Of a stretch of 16,406 bases of DNA, positions 11,764-16,402 are shown in pieces. The stretch comes from a bacterium Ga0077546. Its GTDB lineage: Bacteria > Cyanobacteriota > Vampirovibrionia > Obscuribacterales > Obscuribacteraceae. The DNA lies in the NCBI GenBank assembly GCA_001464165.1, contig LNEX01000438.1, positions 1-16,406 on the forward strand. The letters are read 5' to 3'. The position numbers and the translations under genes are program-made. The notes beneath the pieces were generated by a model. It saw only the letters and a list, made by a program, of their open reading frames with translations. It made no database searches and was not told where the DNA came from. The stretch's first letter is position 1; each line of letters opens with the position of its first letter.

Positions 11764-12192
11764 TTAGATGGTAGCGCTTTCATCCCCATGAATCTTCGCC
11801 ACTTTGTCTCGCACAGCCTGAAAGCCCTGCCAGCCTTCATCAGAAGGATTGTGTGGATCAATTAACTGGCTCGTCGAGCAATCAATTAATGACCACTTGT
11901 TAGGATTAGCAAATTTTAGTAGTGATGGAATTGGATGGCCGTTGCCTCTTACGTGCACCATCAACGACTCAATTGGATCTTCTTTGCCGGTATTGAATTC
12001 AAAGGAAAATTCGTCACCAGTATAGATGCCCCAAGTCGGGTCTGACCAGTCTACGCTGGGCAGTGCATGAGTTATGAGATGGCGCACTTCCTCCGCTGAG
12101 CCTAGCGGATCGGCATTCTGATCTTCTGGCAGTTCTTCTAAGTCTTCGGGTGGCTTGCCACCAAAGTTCAATACCATTACGTCCCAACTCAT
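11764..12192 (-). CDS. Unrecognised cytoplasmic protein (142 aa), last gene of the arsenic operon
   Basis: I do not recognise the family. It has no signal peptide or membrane helix, and is acidic near the N-terminus (PPEDLEELPEDQNADPLG). MSWDVMVLNFGG at the start and VDWSDPTWGIYTGDEFSFEF in the middle look like a compact alpha/beta fold with many aromatic residues. A HVRGNGHPI segment and WSLIDCSTSQLID follow. There is one Cys (C108). The ATG at 12192 overlaps the arsI stop (ATGA) and has AAGGAA 11 bases upstream. An ATG at 12204 would put that site directly on the start codon and is rejected. Transcription with arsR and arsI suggests a link to arsenic or simply cotranscription. A function in arsenic resistance is only an inference. 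Confidence 0.78.
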   Translation of the reverse strand: MSWDVMVLNFGGKPPEDLEELPEDQNADPLGSAEEVRHLITHALPSVDWSDPTWGIYTGDEFSFEFNTGKEDPIESLMVHVRGNGHPIPSLLKFANPNKWSLIDCSTSQLIDPHNPSDEGWQGFQAVRDKVAKIHGDESATI

Positions 12193-12698
12193 GAGTTTTT
12201 GCATTCCTTCTTGGTGAGACTAATACTGATCGGTTGATTCTCTGAGGGCACTGAAGTCTTACCCGATTCTGGTGCACAACACGCTGAGACTTGCGATGCA
12301 GAAACTTGAGGCAGTTCAGCATCTTCACCATAAGTTGTAGCTATGTCGGTAGTGTGGAAGCTTTCCCAGGCAATTCCTTGTGGATCATGCACCCAGGTTT
12401 TGTCTGCCTTGGCGTAACAGCAAGTGGTTTGTTCTTGTTCAAGAATAGGTTGCTGAGCTTTTTTTAAGCGCATTGAAATTTCTTTCAGTGAGCCTGCATC
12501 TTCGACTTGTATGCCTAAATGGTCAAGTCCAGGCTCTCTGCCGCGAGTTGAGATGGCGAAGTTGATGCGGGGATCATCAAGCATCCATTTTGCATAGTCT
12601 TCTTTTGACACAGTCGGCGCTGCATCAAAGAACGTTGAATAGAACTGAATGGATTGTTCTAAGTCTGCTACGGCTACATGTACGTGAAATCTTTTCAT
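12189..12698 (-). CDS. arsI: ArsI-type C-As lyase (organoarsenical dioxygenase), VOC/glyoxalase fold
   Basis: ArsI cleaves the carbon-arsenic bond of trivalent organoarsenicals such as methylarsenite, using Fe(II) and oxygen. The VOC-fold protein starts RFHVHVAVADLEQSIQFY and keeps residues that match characterised ArsI: metal ligands H5, H60 and E112, and the substrate-binding vicinal pair C93-C94 in TTCCYAKADK. WMLDDPRINFAISTRG and WVHDPQGIAWESFHT are further family blocks. CadI-annotated relatives look the same. After the domain comes a 55-residue tail with another Cys pair (SACCAPES). The ATG at 12698 overlaps the arsR stop (ATGA) with GGAGG 9 bases upstream. The GTG six bases earlier is too close to that site. 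The neighbouring arsR supports arsenic induction. Confidence 0.92.
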   Translation of the reverse strand: MKRFHVHVAVADLEQSIQFYSTFFDAAPTVSKEDYAKWMLDDPRINFAISTRGREPGLDHLGIQVEDAGSLKEISMRLKKAQQPILEQEQTTCCYAKADKTWVHDPQGIAWESFHTTDIATTYGEDAELPQVSASQVSACCAPESGKTSVPSENQPISISLTKKECKNS

Positions 12699-13042
12699 TG
12701 ACACTTTCCTCCATCACAACAACCATCATCGTTACCATCACCAGCATCATTTTCTTTTTCTTCAACGCAGCAGTTTTCCAGCATAAAGCTCATTAGTTGC
12801 TGCATTCGCTCGTAATTTGCTGAATATATAATTGAACGACTTTCTCTTCTTGGCACAATTAAACCGGCAGTGCTGAGTTCTTTTAGGTGAAATGACATAG
12901 TAGCCGCAGGCATGGCGAACTGGCTGCTTAGATCGCCGGCAGCCATTCCTTGTTGACCTTTGCGCACCAAGAGTCTGAATATTTCTAGCCTGGTTTCATG
13001 GGCCAGGGCAGATAGAGCGCTTACTGCTGTTTTTATTTCCAT
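12695..13042 (-). CDS. arsR: ArsR-family As(III)-responsive repressor
   Basis: A 115-aa winged-helix repressor of the ArsR/SmtB family, with LSALAHETRLEIFRLL in helix 1-2 and the recognition helix in MPAATMSFHLKELSTAGLI, then the wing RRESRSIIY. The metal-sensing Cys are C-terminal: C91-C92 in ENCC, then C108-C109 and C114 in an acidic, Gly-rich tail. A C-terminal CC pair plus a further Cys is the arrangement of Acidithiobacillus-type ArsR, while the classical helix-4 CVC motif is absent. Its 3' end overlaps arsI by ATGA. It should repress its own operon via the dyad just upstream and release on As(III) or methylarsenite binding. Confidence 0.93.
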   Translation of the reverse strand: MEIKTAVSALSALAHETRLEIFRLLVRKGQQGMAAGDLSSQFAMPAATMSFHLKELSTAGLIVPRRESRSIIYSANYERMQQLMSFMLENCCVEEKENDAGDGNDDGCCDGGKCQ

Positions 13043-13077: not shown

Positions 13078-13108
13078 CTGTACGGCCTTAAACATTCGTA
13101 GTAAGTGC

Positions 13109-13150
13109 TTGCCATCCGCCTGACGCGATGTTAACCTCAGCTCAGTTAAC
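13109..13150 (+). promoter_or_regulatory. Candidate his operon promoter with two GTTAAC palindromes
   Basis: TTGCCA (13109-13114), 17 bases, then TAACCT (13132-13137) is a moderate sigma70-like pair that would start transcription near 13144, ahead of the leader peptide. GTTAAC occurs twice (13130-13135 and 13145-13150), and CTCAG is repeated between. This could be a binding site. The -10 match is only fair. Confidence 0.35.
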
Positions 13151-13172
13151 GTTTAGCAGGTTTCTGTAAGAA

Positions 13173-13223
13173 ATGACCGGCCGCCACCACCATCATCATA
13201 TGTTTCTCGATGGAGCGGACTAG
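13173..13223 (+). CDS. hisL: Histidine-rich leader peptide of the his operon (16 aa)
   Basis: ATG at 13173 opens the frame M-T-G-R-H-H-H-H-H-M-F-L-D-G-A-D and stops at TAG (13221-13223). Five consecutive His codons (CAC CAC CAT CAT CAT, 13185-13199) are the sensor of charged tRNA-His in his attenuators such as enteric hisL. The ribosome binding site is weak (GCAGG 12 bases upstream). The peptide is followed by a U-tailed hairpin before hisG, and its 3' codons lie inside the antiterminator arm. It has no homology to enteric hisL beyond the His run, which is normal for such peptides. The assignment rests on position, His run and the RNA structures. Confidence 0.85.
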   Translation: MTGRHHHHHMFLDGAD

Positions 13224-13284
13224 CAGCCACCTTGCGTTTACGCACGAAACTGTTTAGAGCTCGCTCCCTGCGGGCTCTTTTTTT
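13190..13284 (+). promoter_or_regulatory. his operon transcription attenuator (alternative hairpins 1:2, 2:3, 3:4)
   Basis: Three mutually exclusive pairings are visible. Pairing 1:2 is CCATC (13190-13194, within the His codons) with GATGG (13209-13213). Pairing 2:3 is GGAGCGG (13212-13218) with TCGCTCC (13261-13267), 7 bp with one G-U. Pairing 3:4 is AGAGCTCGC (13256-13264) with GCGGGCTCT (13270-13278), the terminator. A ribosome stalled on the His codons would cover arm 1 and leave arm 2 free to pair with 3, preventing the terminator. A ribosome at the stop codon (13221) would cover arm 2 and allow 3:4. A small GCG-TTTA-CGC hairpin (13234-13243) lies in between. This is an RNA-level switch deduced from sequence only. 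Confidence 0.8.
13256..13284 (+). terminator. Attenuator terminator before hisG
   Basis: AGAGCTCGC pairs with GCGGGCTCT (9 bp with one T-G wobble) across a TCCCT loop, followed by seven T. It lies 24 bases upstream of the hisG ATG, so it can only act as a conditional terminator for the his operon. Confidence 0.88.
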
Positions 13285-13307
13285 ATGCAATTTTTGAGGA
13301 TGAGATT

Positions 13308-14297
13308 ATGACCAAGACTGTTAAAGATGGTGAGAATTCAACTGGCTCTGCCAATACTTCCAATACTGCCCATACTTCCAGCGCTGCCAAATTGGAAACT
13401 ACCGAAGGTAGCCAGAAGACCGATTTGCGGTTGACTATACCCAAGGGTCGCATTCAAGAAAAGGTTATGGCTCTTTTAAGTCAGATTGGCATGAATTTTC
13501 TCACTGATGGCCGCTCGTATAGCCCGATTTGCTCAGACCCACACGTAATTACTAAGTTGCTTAAGTCACAAAATATTCCTAGTCTGGTTGCACTTGGTCG
13601 CCATGATTGTGGCTTCTCTGGCTACGACTGGACGATTGAGCAAGACGCCGAAGTTGTTGAGCTGCTTGATTTGCAGTTTGACCCAGTGCGAATTGTTGCC
13701 GCCATGCCTGAAGACTTGCTTGCTGGTGGCGATTTTAGAACAATGAATTTTGGTAGAAAATTGATAGTAGCTTCTGAGTATCGCAATTTGGCTAAGCGAT
13801 TTATTGAGAAGAATAAGTTAGACGCGATTTTTCTTCAGACCTTTGGTGCAACCGAGGCCCTGCCTCCAGAAGACGCCGATATCATTGTAGACAATACTTC
13901 CACTGGCACTACTCTTAAGCATAATCGTTTGGTAATTGTGGAAGAAATTATGCGTTCCACCACGCGCTTTATATGCAACCCTAAAGCTCTTGAAGATCCC
14001 ATCAAGCGCCGCATGCTCGAAGAGATGACAATGCTGATGAAGAGCACACTTCTGGCTAAGCAAAAAGTCATGCTTGAAATGAATGTGTCGCGTGAAGACT
14101 TTGAGTGTGTGGTAGGCAACCTTCCGTGTATGCGCGCACCTACGATTTCAGAGCTTTACAACGGAGGTGGTTATGCTATCAAGATCGCCGTGCCTACTAG
14201 AGAAGTGCCTGATTTGATTCCAAAACTAGTGGCTCTTGGTGCCCGCGATATTCTTGAATATAAAGTAGAGAAAATTGTGGCAGGTTACGACAAATGA
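13308..14297 (+). CDS. hisG: ATP phosphoribosyltransferase, long form
   Basis: HisG condenses ATP with PRPP in the first, feedback-inhibited step of histidine synthesis. LRLTIPKGRIQEKV at residue 40 is the family start, with LVALGRHDCGFSGYDW and the PRPP-binding region around DNTSTGTTLKHNRLV. The C-terminal part, NLPCMRAPTISELYNGGGYA to the end (EVPDLIPKLVALGARDILEYKVEKI), is the ACT-like HisG_C regulatory domain, so this is the long, HisZ-independent form that binds histidine itself. Before the domain is a 38-residue extension of S, T, N, A with repeated AATACTTCC/CATACTTCC-like DNA, absent from typical HisG. GAGG lies about 9 bases before the ATG. The stop overlaps the next gene by ATGA. 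Confidence 0.95.
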   Translation: MTKTVKDGENSTGSANTSNTAHTSSAAKLETTEGSQKTDLRLTIPKGRIQEKVMALLSQIGMNFLTDGRSYSPICSDPHVITKLLKSQNIPSLVALGRHDCGFSGYDWTIEQDAEVVELLDLQFDPVRIVAAMPEDLLAGGDFRTMNFGRKLIVASEYRNLAKRFIEKNKLDAIFLQTFGATEALPPEDADIIVDNTSTGTTLKHNRLVIVEEIMRSTTRFICNPKALEDPIKRRMLEEMTMLMKSTLLAKQKVMLEMNVSREDFECVVGNLPCMRAPTISELYNGGGYAIKIAVPTREVPDLIPKLVALGARDILEYKVEKIVAGYDK

Positions 14298-15031
14298 GTA
14301 GCGATAGCAGCAGAGGCAGTATAAATTTCAATGACAGCGGGAGCAGCAACTCCGCGCTTATCGTGCCGCAAGCCAGCGACGCCAACTATGCTGTGATTTT
14401 TGATCTTGATGGCACTCTTGTCGATACCTCCAAGAGTTTCGATGAAACCATTAAACAAATGGTGCAAAAATATTCGGGCGCACCACTGTTTGATCAAGAG
14501 ATTGCAAACCTGCGACAAGAGGGCGGATACAATGACGATTGGGTAACTACTGCCGAGCTATTGCGCCGTCGTGGTTTTGCCGAGCCTCTTTCTAAAATTG
14601 TCCAAGAGGCGACTGAGTTATATTTGCAACTAGCGCCAAGCAACGAATTTGCTCTGTTTGATGATCAGCTTCTTAAAGCTATTTCTGAGCGGCATCCGCT
14701 ATTTATTGTTACTGGTCGCACAAGACCAGAGTACGATCCAATTTGGGGCGAGCGCTTAGACCCATTATTTAAGCGGGTTTATTGCCTCCATGACGTTCCT
14801 GGTAAAGCACCGAAGCCGTCTCCCGACTATCTTTTGCAATTGATGATTGATTTCAATTTAGAAACTGGAGTCTATGTTGGCAACGCCGTAGACGACATGT
14901 GGGCAGCGCGGGATGCTAACCTAACGCGCATTGGTATCACTTCTACTTTGCCAGCGGCCGCTCTTAGTGCCGCAGGTGCACAGATAGTTCTAGAATCAGT
15001 AAACGAGCTAAGACAGGTATTTTCACTATGA
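14294..15031 (+). CDS. HAD-superfamily phosphatase in the his operon, candidate histidinol-phosphatase
   Basis: A HAD hydrolase of subfamily IA, with motif I DLDGT (nucleophile D37, acid D39), motif II TGR, motif III Lys in KAPKPSPDYLL and motif IV GNAVDDMWAARDA. YNDDW is placed in the cap as in the small clade (TIGR01548, hyp1) known from cyanobacteria, haloarchaea and some protists. It lies between hisG and hisB, joined to both by ATGA overlaps. The pathway needs a histidinol-phosphate phosphatase, and no hisN- or HisB-type phosphatase domain is seen here, so this is a good candidate. The role is an inference from position. The substrate is not proven. The N-terminus carries a 30-residue low-complexity extension (S, N, D, G) before the domain. 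Confidence 0.85.
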   Translation: MSSDSSRGSINFNDSGSSNSALIVPQASDANYAVIFDLDGTLVDTSKSFDETIKQMVQKYSGAPLFDQEIANLRQEGGYNDDWVTTAELLRRRGFAEPLSKIVQEATELYLQLAPSNEFALFDDQLLKAISERHPLFIVTGRTRPEYDPIWGERLDPLFKRVYCLHDVPGKAPKPSPDYLLQLMIDFNLETGVYVGNAVDDMWAARDANLTRIGITSTLPAAALSAAGAQIVLESVNELRQVFSL

Positions 15032-15705
15032 CAACAGCTTCTGGAAAAGACCATATTGGAAAAGAACAGATTGGTAAGGACCAAATTGAAAGGAAACAAA
15101 TGACTCAGAAAATCAGTAGATTTGCTTCTGTCACGAGGAAAACCAAAGAGACCGACATCACTATAGAAATCAATTTGGATCAACCTAGCCCACCTGATAT
15201 TGAGACATCTTTGCCCTTCTTGTCGCACATGCTAGACGCCTTAGCTGTGCACGGCAGATTTGGCCTCAAGGTGCGCGCCGTTGGCGATATCGAAGTTGAT
15301 CCCCATCACTTAATTGAAGACACTGGCATCACTTTGGGTGAGGCCATTTTTAAAGCTTTAGGTGGATTGGCTGGGATAAATCGCGCTGGCTGTTTTACTT
15401 ACCCGATGGACGGCAGCTTGGTCACTATCGCCATTGATTTGTGTGGCCGCCGCAATCTCACCTGGAAAGTACAGTTTGGTAATTTTGAAGTTGGTCACCT
15501 CGACCCCAATCTTTTTAGAGAATTCTTCAAGGGTTTGGTTGATGGCTTGAGAGCTACGTTGCACTGCCACGAACTTTATGGTGACAACGATCACCACGTC
15601 ATTGAAGCAGTCTTCAAGGGCTTAGGCAAGGCGCTGCGTCAGGCCGTAGTGCCTCTAGAAACTGGTGAATATCTCAGCACTAAAGGCATCTTGGATGAAA
15701 GCTGA
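15028..15705 (+). CDS. hisB: Imidazoleglycerol-phosphate dehydratase
   Basis: HisB dehydrates imidazoleglycerol phosphate in histidine synthesis, using Mn(II) held by His/Glu clusters. SLPFLSHMLDALAVHGRFG, DPHHLIEDTGITLGEA, and HCHELYGDNDHHVIEAVFKG are the family motifs that supply the ligands. It is the monofunctional enzyme, without the HisN-like domain of enteric HisB. Two starts are possible. ATG 15028 overlaps the HAD stop by ATGA. ATG 15100 has an AAAGGA site 6 bases upstream and opens directly on the family sequence (TQKISRFASVTRKTKETD). The 24 residues between are four 5-residue repeats (GKDHI, GKEQI, GKDQI, ERKQM) after MTTAS, so they are not needed for activity. I give the longer form because of the coupling. 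Confidence 0.95.
   Translation: MTTASGKDHIGKEQIGKDQIERKQMTQKISRFASVTRKTKETDITIEINLDQPSPPDIETSLPFLSHMLDALAVHGRFGLKVRAVGDIEVDPHHLIEDTGITLGEAIFKALGGLAGINRAGCFTYPMDGSLVTIAIDLCGRRNLTWKVQFGNFEVGHLDPNLFREFFKGLVDGLRATLHCHELYGDNDHHVIEAVFKGLGKALRQAVVPLETGEYLSTKGILDES
15043..15102 (+). repeat. Four tandem 15-nt units at the hisB 5' end
   Basis: Units at 15043, 15058, 15073 and 15088 share the pattern GGAAAAGA-CA-ATT and encode GKDHI, GKEQI, GKDQI and ERKQM in frame. The last unit ends at the ATG of the alternative hisB start (15100). Divergence rises towards the gene, so it is a decayed minisatellite-like duplication. Confidence 0.8.
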
Positions 15706-15781: not shown

Positions 15782-16402
15782 ATGAATTCCCAAAAATTTG
15801 CTGTAGACCTAGTCACATCAGTTGGTGGCAACCTGGGCAGCGTCGGTCGTAGCTTGACTCGCCTTGGTATCAATTTTAATGCTGTTGATGTAAGCAATCC
15901 GCCCGATGGTTCGCGCCCTATTATTTTGCCGGGTGTTGGCGCCTTTGGGGCGGTTATGGCATCCTTGCGAGAAGGTGGCTTTGATCAAGCTGTCAAATCA
16001 TTGGTACAAGCTGGTACTCCATTTCTTGGAGTTTGCGTCGGCATGCAAATTCTCTTTGATAGCAGTGAAGAAGCCCCTGGTGTTGCTGGGCTTGGTTTGG
16101 TGAAAGGCACGGTCGTCAAATATACTCAAGGCAAAGTGCCGCAGACTGGCTGGAATGAAGTAAGACCAGTCAATGGCAATAGTGACGGCGACGAGGGCTG
16201 GCCCTCCGGATTTGTTTATTTCGTCAATTCTTATTATGCCAAGCCCGAGAATGATTCAGCCACTCTCTATGAGGCTGACTACTTCGGCCCATTTTGCGCT
16301 GCTGTGTCGACTTGCAACATTACAGCCTTTCAGTTTCACCCAGAAAAGAGCGGTGAATTTGGTGAGAGTCTTCTGAAAAGATGGGTGAGCGATGTTGTCT
16401 AG
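15782..16402 (+). CDS. hisH: Imidazole glycerol phosphate synthase, glutaminase subunit
   Basis: HisH releases ammonia from glutamine for HisF in the fifth step of histidine synthesis. This 206-aa class I glutamine amidotransferase has GVGAFG, the nucleophile C85 in FLGVCVGMQ, and H186/E188 in FQFHPEKSGEFG, completing the catalytic triad. GWNEV and YFVNSYYA are the usual family blocks. The N-terminal strand region (FAVDLVTSVGGNLGSV) keeps the GGNLGSV loop but has TSVG in place of the usual DYGMG. The ATG at 15782 follows an AAGGAGG 10 bases upstream. The stop is at 16400-16402, four bases before the window end. hisA and hisF are expected downstream but lie outside. Confidence 0.95.
   Translation: MNSQKFAVDLVTSVGGNLGSVGRSLTRLGINFNAVDVSNPPDGSRPIILPGVGAFGAVMASLREGGFDQAVKSLVQAGTPFLGVCVGMQILFDSSEEAPGVAGLGLVKGTVVKYTQGKVPQTGWNEVRPVNGNSDGDEGWPSGFVYFVNSYYAKPENDSATLYEADYFGPFCAAVSTCNITAFQFHPEKSGEFGESLLKRWVSDVV

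Follow-up and report, generated by a model that had tools for sequence, protein, structure and literature searches.

In a bacterium of the Cyanobacteriota, a short open reading frame with a run of histidine codons and a hairpin stand in front of hisG, which raises the question whether a translating ribosome controls histidine biosynthesis in this organism. The whole stretch of DNA analysed (the window) comprises 16,406 nucleotides of contig LNEX01000438.1 from the bacterium Ga0077546. Its order, Obscuribacterales, is a non-photosynthetic sister lineage of cyanobacteria. The initial annotation, which was made from the sequence alone, had suspected a host of the cyanobacterial lineage, and this was right in a wide sense because the NCBI taxonomy places Candidatus Obscuribacterales in Melainabacteria, inside the Cyanobacteriota/Melainabacteria group. 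The hisG gene of the window shares 93% identity with its counterpart in the nearest genome compared. A protein search with hisG returned 3368 proteins at E 1e-30, and the organism names among the best 120 of these were Obscuribacter, Melainabacteria and Cyanobacteria in addition to one soil metagenome, with few of them named. The features on which the analysis rests are the following:

12695 to 13042, minus strand: ArsR/SmtB-type regulator gene, divergent, left neighbour of the leader (profile match)
13109 to 13137, plus strand: probable promoter with TTGCCA (13109-13114), a 17-nt spacer and an extended -10 element TGTTAACCT (TG at 13129-13130, hexamer at 13132-13137) (consensus scoring)
13173 to 13223, plus strand: leader peptide open reading frame MTGRHHHHHMFLDGAD, 16 codons, ATG at 13173, TAG at 13221-13223 (read directly)
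13185 to 13199, plus strand: regulatory codons CAC CAC CAT CAT CAT (read directly; runs of 3-7 His codons in 25 aligned leader loci)
13212 to 13226, plus strand: antiterminator arm 2 (GGAGCGG A CTAG CAG), which runs across the stop codon (folding of the RNA before arm 4, pair counts, partner-swap test)
13233 to 13244, plus strand: small apical hairpin TGCG-TTTA-CGCA within the antiterminator (fold before arm 4)
13250 to 13267, plus strand: arm 3, CTG T TTAG AGC TCGCTCC, pairing with arm 2 and overlapping the left arm of the terminator (folding, swap test, pair counts)
13256 to 13284, plus strand: intrinsic terminator AGAGCTCGC / TCCCT / GCGGGCTCT, T run to 13284 (terminator scan, folding)
13270 to 13278, plus strand: arm 4, the right arm of the terminator and partner of arm 3 in the proposed mechanism
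13308 to 14297, plus strand: hisG, ATP phosphoribosyltransferase, long form (TIGR00070 and TIGR03455 above cut-off; PF01634, PF08029)
14294 to 15031, plus strand: HAD-family hydrolase (PF13419, PF00702)
15028 to 15705, plus strand: hisB, imidazoleglycerol-phosphate dehydratase (PF00475; best NCBIfam match 220.9 against a cut-off of 231, just below)
15782 to 16402, plus strand: hisH, imidazole glycerol phosphate synthase subunit (TIGR01855 above cut-off)

Direct reading and scans confirmed the 16-codon open reading frame with five His codons, the U-tailed hairpin and the downstream hisG that had been annotated. The reading frame is kept in the three closest relatives (L001, L002, L003), where it has 5 or 7 His codons and ends in TAG or TAA. 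Its ribosome binding site is weak by eye, and none is clear. No run of at least four CAC/CAT codons was found in 402,374 strand-bases of his loci (a total that includes near-duplicate loci) outside the 340 nt before the match. The terminator-like hairpin occupies 13256-13278 and its T run 13278-13284; shuffles of that 401-nt region contained on average 0.4 terminator-like sites. Downstream of the terminator, the genes follow in the order hisG-HAD-hisB-hisH, and from its position the HAD-family hydrolase (14294-15031) is possibly the histidinol-phosphatase.

As the ArsR-type gene at the left is divergent, the leader should have its own promoter. The block at 13109-13137 fits an extended -10 promoter and is a probable candidate. 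It scores 14 out of 14 positions and was equalled by none of 200 mononucleotide shuffles, a score that is high by construction since the motif was read from these same loci and then scored on them. Scores of at least 11 out of 14 were found in 17 of the 25 leader loci (at most 8 of 200 shuffles equal), and the other eight were within chance (30 to 125 of 200 shuffles equal). Two loci without a leader (L006, L007) score 11 and 13. A general promoter scan gave no plus-strand site in the region of 13109-13137. On the minus strand of the window, 12189-13042 holds the ArsR/SmtB-type regulator together with a glyoxalase-family protein, both with cysteine pairs near their ends; these two genes are possibly a metal or arsenic response unit.

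The annotation had described a set of pairings (1:2, 2:3 and 3:4) that compete for the same RNA. As long as arm 4 is absent, the RNA is predicted to fold into pairing 2:3 (13212-13226 with 13250-13267; -19.4 kcal/mol, z -2.19, matched by 12 of 300 shuffles), and pairing 3:4 reaches -15.8 kcal/mol. The annotated antiterminator (2:3) and terminator (3:4) are thus supported by folding, and also by the relatives and the covariation described below. Pairing 1:2, with arm 1 on the His codons, did not hold up in the window, where its duplex energy of -10.7 compares with a shuffle mean of -12.7 and 397 of 500 shuffles were as good. Folding of the entire leader stretch, which had been proposed as a check, was likewise unsuccessful: 13173-13300 did not outperform its shuffles (z -0.92; 32 of 200 matched it). 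Across the 25 loci the mean z of 1:2 was -1.0. In eight loci (L005, L015, L035 and five of genus g23) at most 21 of 500 shuffles were as good, and the stronger 1:2 of L015, L035 and genus g23 has its first arm upstream of the His run. A protector pairing 1:2 is dispensable for the basic switch. What stands of the attenuator as annotated is therefore the His open reading frame, pairings 2:3 and 3:4 and the host lineage; the 1:2 pairing on the His codons does not.

The 25 leader loci (the window and 24 genomes) show which parts of the leader are retained. The His codons differ in number and synonymously (105 CAT and 28 CAC in total), and the remainder of the peptide varies, as do the length of the reading frame (9 to 66 codons, depending on the start chosen), the position of the stop and the stop codon itself (TGA in 10, TAG in 9, TAA in 6). 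The distance from the first His codon to the core of arm 2 meanwhile stays narrow, at 18-32 nt with eight arm starts set by hand, or 14-32 nt by an automatic rule. Measured to the start of arm 2, the window has 25 nt from the first His codon and 13 nt from the last, and the stop codon follows 9 nt later. By this geometry, a ribosome stalled at an early His codon would leave arm 2 free and a ribosome at the stop codon would cover it. Arm 2 would be covered only partly in genus g23, whose stop codon precedes it by 8 nt. The terminator hairpin folds in all 25 loci, with its 3' end set by hand in two (L010, L015). When the RNA running from the last His codon through arm 3 was folded, the region of arm 2 paired with arm 3 in 25/25 predictions, including L008 with only 4 such pairs. 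The mean z of these folds was -3.2, and the weak cases were L008 (-0.45) and L013 (-1.07). The sequence of the apical hairpin (13233-13244) differs among the relatives.

RNAalifold on the leader alignment returned the terminator alone (7 pairs) and not the antiterminator, and the antiterminator was therefore assessed by counts on the named structure. The count covered 13 pairs in 27 sequences (26 distinct), in place of a set of 34 matches that included 9 low-scoring ones. Paired cells made up 75.7% (70.3 ± 1.2 in shuffles), doubly changed cells numbered 30 (15.5 ± 2.8) and the covariation score was 0.266 (0.186 ± 0.016), values that were each reached by 0 of 500 shuffles in tests that are inflated by the relatedness of the sequences and use an alignment fitted to the structure. 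Sliding the partner lowered the pairing to 30-47%. By a weaker measure, nine pairs were changed on both sides compared to 6.9 in shuffles (44 of 500 reached it), and the inner pairs of the helix were just 58-62% paired. An alignment-free swap test on 20 loci gave -18.4 kcal/mol for own partners vs -16.6 kcal/mol for foreign ones (permutation p 0.001), the own partner being the best of 20 in one row and one column only.

Individual exchanges illustrate the covariation. In L004, L005 and L013, GAGCGG/CCGCTC is replaced by GAGCAG/CTGCTC, and the right arm of the terminator retains its G and accepts a G-U pair. The pair CTGA/TCAG (e.g., in L035) corresponds to CTAG or CTAA with TTAG in the genus of the window and to CTCA/TGAG in genus g23. 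In the genus of the window, a T in place of C in arm 3 thereby corresponds to the TAG or TAA stop that replaces the TGA within CTGA. The annotation had asked the relatives for conserved His codons and for covariation in the 2:3 and 3:4 arms; His codons are retained, and 2:3 has compensatory changes in excess of shuffles. The sequence parts, their conservation and the covariation of the antiterminator are thus shown.

Equilibrium folding was carried out with a ribosome placed on the RNA. The terminator had a probability of 1.0 in 25/25 loci when the ribosome sat at the stop codon; for a ribosome at the first His codon this probability was below 0.5 in five loci and at least 0.5 in the other 20. 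In the window it was at least 0.9 whichever His codon the ribosome occupied. Two controls, the leaders of E. coli his and trp, likewise favoured the terminator at equilibrium with arm 2 free. As these controls behave alike, the equilibrium test does not discriminate, and it lends no support either. Since the terminator is kept at equilibrium even when arm 2 is free, the switch must be kinetic, with 2:3 preceding arm 4.

From these parts we infer the transcription start, translation, stalling, switching and kinetic order as follows. RNA polymerase would start near 13144 and a ribosome would translate the leader. When charged His-tRNA is scarce, the ribosome would stall within 13185-13199 with its leading edge leaving arm 2 free, and arm 2 would pair with arm 3 before arm 4 exists, blocking the terminator and letting transcription continue into the operon. 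With plentiful His-tRNA, the ribosome would proceed to the stop codon at 13221 and cover arm 2, arm 3 would pair with arm 4 and transcription would stop at 13278-13284. The locus combines a tandem-His open reading frame before a his operon, a terminator between the leader and the first gene and a covarying antiterminator that shares an arm with it, features of the His attenuator class. Judged by its sequence, the region very probably works as a ribosome-mediated attenuator of hisG-HAD-hisB-hisH transcription, with charged histidyl-tRNA as the signal sensed.

The terminator could instead be governed by a protein or small molecule (a T-box, a riboswitch or an RNA-binding protein), with the leader reading frame secondary, and passages of PMC9413887 indeed place some his operons elsewhere under T-boxes or the repressor HisR. 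In the window, no Rfam family reached its threshold, none of the nine Rfam matches up to E 10 in 13100-13320 was a T-box, and the competing pairing fits the position of a ribosome, counter to control by a ligand or protein. We consider such control highly improbable.

The leader is widespread in the order. A protein search and a Pfam model detected hisG in 28 of 53 Obscuribacterales genomes, and 26 of these 28 carry the leader according to a covariance model. Since the window and 24 of the matching genomes went into this model, only G030 and G073 are independent finds. In G030 the match lies before hisD, not hisG, and the His run is reduced to HRHH; in G073 it lies at a his gene and the contig begins inside the leader. 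The hisG match of G030 (L085) is short and located elsewhere on its contig. A leader with at least three adjacent His was present before hisG in 24 of 26 loci of the order tested. Homologous loci lacking both the His run and the terminator, named in the annotation as the observation that would count against it, occur in two of the 28 hisG genomes, both of one genus (G031, locus L006; G010, locus L007). These two have hisG without a leader and retain a promoter-like block; L006 maybe also holds a terminator remnant. Both bear Trp and Leu leaders before other genes and a Ser leader, which is looser in G031.

Two other loci of the order deviate. Three other members of the genus share 89-93% hisG identity with the window and L016 (G005) only 63%, and the leader of L016 looks by eye like that of genus g23; a possible explanation is exchange of the his operon together with its attenuator. 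In L019 (G007), hisG by eye continues in frame into an apparent hisC, 690 codons from the start of the match.

Searching 386 genomes of the phylum with model R1 under strict filters gave two matches at E 1e-4 (G001 and G211) and nothing convincing outside the order. The match in G211 by eye resembles a repeat-protein gene and was set aside. G001 was the sole leader-bearing genome of the order recovered, and the sample of 386 therefore evidently contained few of them. For other classes of the phylum, 21 hisG loci were read and none had four adjacent His codons upstream; one of these loci (L222) has a short open reading frame with three adjacent His codons before hisG. No His run was seen by eye in four hisG loci from elsewhere in the class (L020-L023); short HisG-like matches (L024-L030) were excluded from the reading of leaders.

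Leaders for other amino acids were found in the same order. A selectivity test covered 420 nt upstream of 112 loci: 26 hisG, 29 trpE, 27 leuA (of 30 loci), 20 serS2 (second seryl-tRNA synthetase) and 10 serS1 (ordinary seryl-tRNA synthetase, 10 of many matches), with trpE locus L164 dropped as its upstream stretch is short. Two adjacent Trp in a short open reading frame preceded trpE in 26 of 29 loci (L149-L178), and four adjacent Leu preceded leuA in 13 of 27 (strict test; L179-L205). A number of the Trp leaders then carry a terminator-like hairpin, and several of the Leu leaders are followed, by eye, by GGCTCTGT-type hairpins with U runs. A short open reading frame with four adjacent Ser was present in 15 of 20 serS2 loci, L107 among them being doubtful, and a looser Ser run was seen by eye in three more (L099, L102, L103); a Ser-run leader preceded serS1 in 0 of 10 loci. 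The 26 hisG loci had no WW, LLLL or SSSS leader, and an HHH leader was absent from the 29 trpE, 27 leuA, 20 serS2 and 10 serS1 loci, so that none of the four run types stood before a wrong gene.

The serS2 leaders surfaced through weak matches of the His model, and the encoded protein passes the serS cut-off. Terminators were present in 14 of 15 serS2 leaders examined; Ser-run leaders with terminators lie, for example, at L083:770-908 and at the upstream ends of L090-L106. Just 3' of the T run of the serS2 terminator there is a GTGCCTCGC-like stretch (L090-L098 and others), which in many loci is by eye complementary to the right arm of the terminator, GCGAGGC. We regard it as likely from these sequences that the order runs a lineage-wide set of attenuators, with His leaders at hisG, Trp at trpE, Leu at leuA, Ser at serS2 and none at serS1.

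This selectivity bears on the possibility that the His-rich reading frame encodes a working small peptide, for example a metal-binding one, and that the terminator merely separates it from hisG. Runs of histidine are known to bind metals, and an ArsR/SmtB-type regulator gene lies divergently next door (12695-13042). Against such a peptide, only the His run is kept while the other residues, the length and the stop codon vary, and among the 112 loci HHH leaders stand before hisG only and WW, LLLL and SSSS leaders before trpE, leuA and serS2 only; the covariation of the antiterminator would also be left unexplained. A working peptide is in our estimation even less probable than control by a ligand. 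Just as improbable is that the leader boosts hisG translation by reinitiation or coupling with the hairpins incidental, a role that passages of PMC4833913 suggest for short leader genes near their gene, with a peak at 10-11 bp and a longer distance usually required for attenuation, given that 84 nt including the terminator separate the leader stop from the hisG start at 13308 and that the identity of the His codons is not accounted for.

A ribosome-mediated attenuator, the preferred reading, can be compared with the leaders of E. coli. E. coli hisL resembles the window in its 16-codon leader with a His run (MTRVQFKHHHHHHHPD in E. coli), in the terminator before hisG, in the use of arm 3 in the fold before arm 4 and in the terminator favoured at equilibrium. 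It differs in a stronger terminator (-28.2 compared to -15.8 in the window) and, as folded here, in a longer chain of hairpins; in the window, unlike in hisL, arm 2 lies partly inside the leader reading frame and 1:2 is unsupported. E. coli trpL is like the window in the layout and energies of arms 2, 3 and 4 (fold before arm 4 -15.6 and terminator -14.0, compared to -19.4 and -15.8), and has Trp codons where the window has His codons. The 1:2 pairing of E. coli trpL is well known. The Rfam model RF00514 (His_leader, cut-off 49 bits) reached its cut-off in none of the 28 hisG-bearing genomes and in one of 14 control genomes. It was absent among the nine matches up to E 10 in 13100-13320 of the window, and matched the leader far below the cut-off in G062, G029, G005, G007 and G061 (E 1.2 to 5.9). 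The covariance model built here thus finds leaders that the Rfam model misses.

Passages of PMC9413887 describe candidate his attenuators of Firmicutes in the Bacillus cereus group, in Peptostreptococcaceae and Lutispora, and in Erysipelotrichales. By that description they share with the window a His leader peptide, a terminator and an antiterminator before the his operon, and they belong to another phylum. His leader peptides also precede hisS and hisZ in bacilli, according to passages of PMC2965389. That 2010 paper, in the same passages, knows leader-peptide systems in Proteobacteria and Actinobacteria only, besides its own Bacillus case and an atypical ermC leader. A 2016 paper notes that reliable data on attenuation in cyanobacteria were lacking (PMC4833913). 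In the open-licence literature (titles and starts of abstracts), no earlier report of leader-peptide attenuation in the Obscuribacterales lineage was found among the matches listed. The uORF motif at cysS in Rhodobacterales, described in passages of PMC8632094, is like the serS2 leaders in placing cognate codons before an aminoacyl-tRNA synthetase gene, and unlike them in its Cys codons and in belonging to Alphaproteobacteria. No paper on serS leaders was found by title among the matches listed or in passages of PMC1183508 and PMC8632094.

If the attenuator works, transcription and translation would be closely coupled in Obscuribacterales. If the lineage-wide set is real, serS2 would be a backup synthetase induced by uncharged tRNA-Ser. 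Streptomyces has an attenuated extra tryptophanyl-tRNA synthetase. The set would then also count as the first convincing case of ribosome-mediated attenuation in the Cyanobacteriota/Melainabacteria group. A sister lineage of cyanobacteria with one well supported case, and apparently with a whole set, is relevant to the question whether attenuation has an ancient origin or arose repeatedly.
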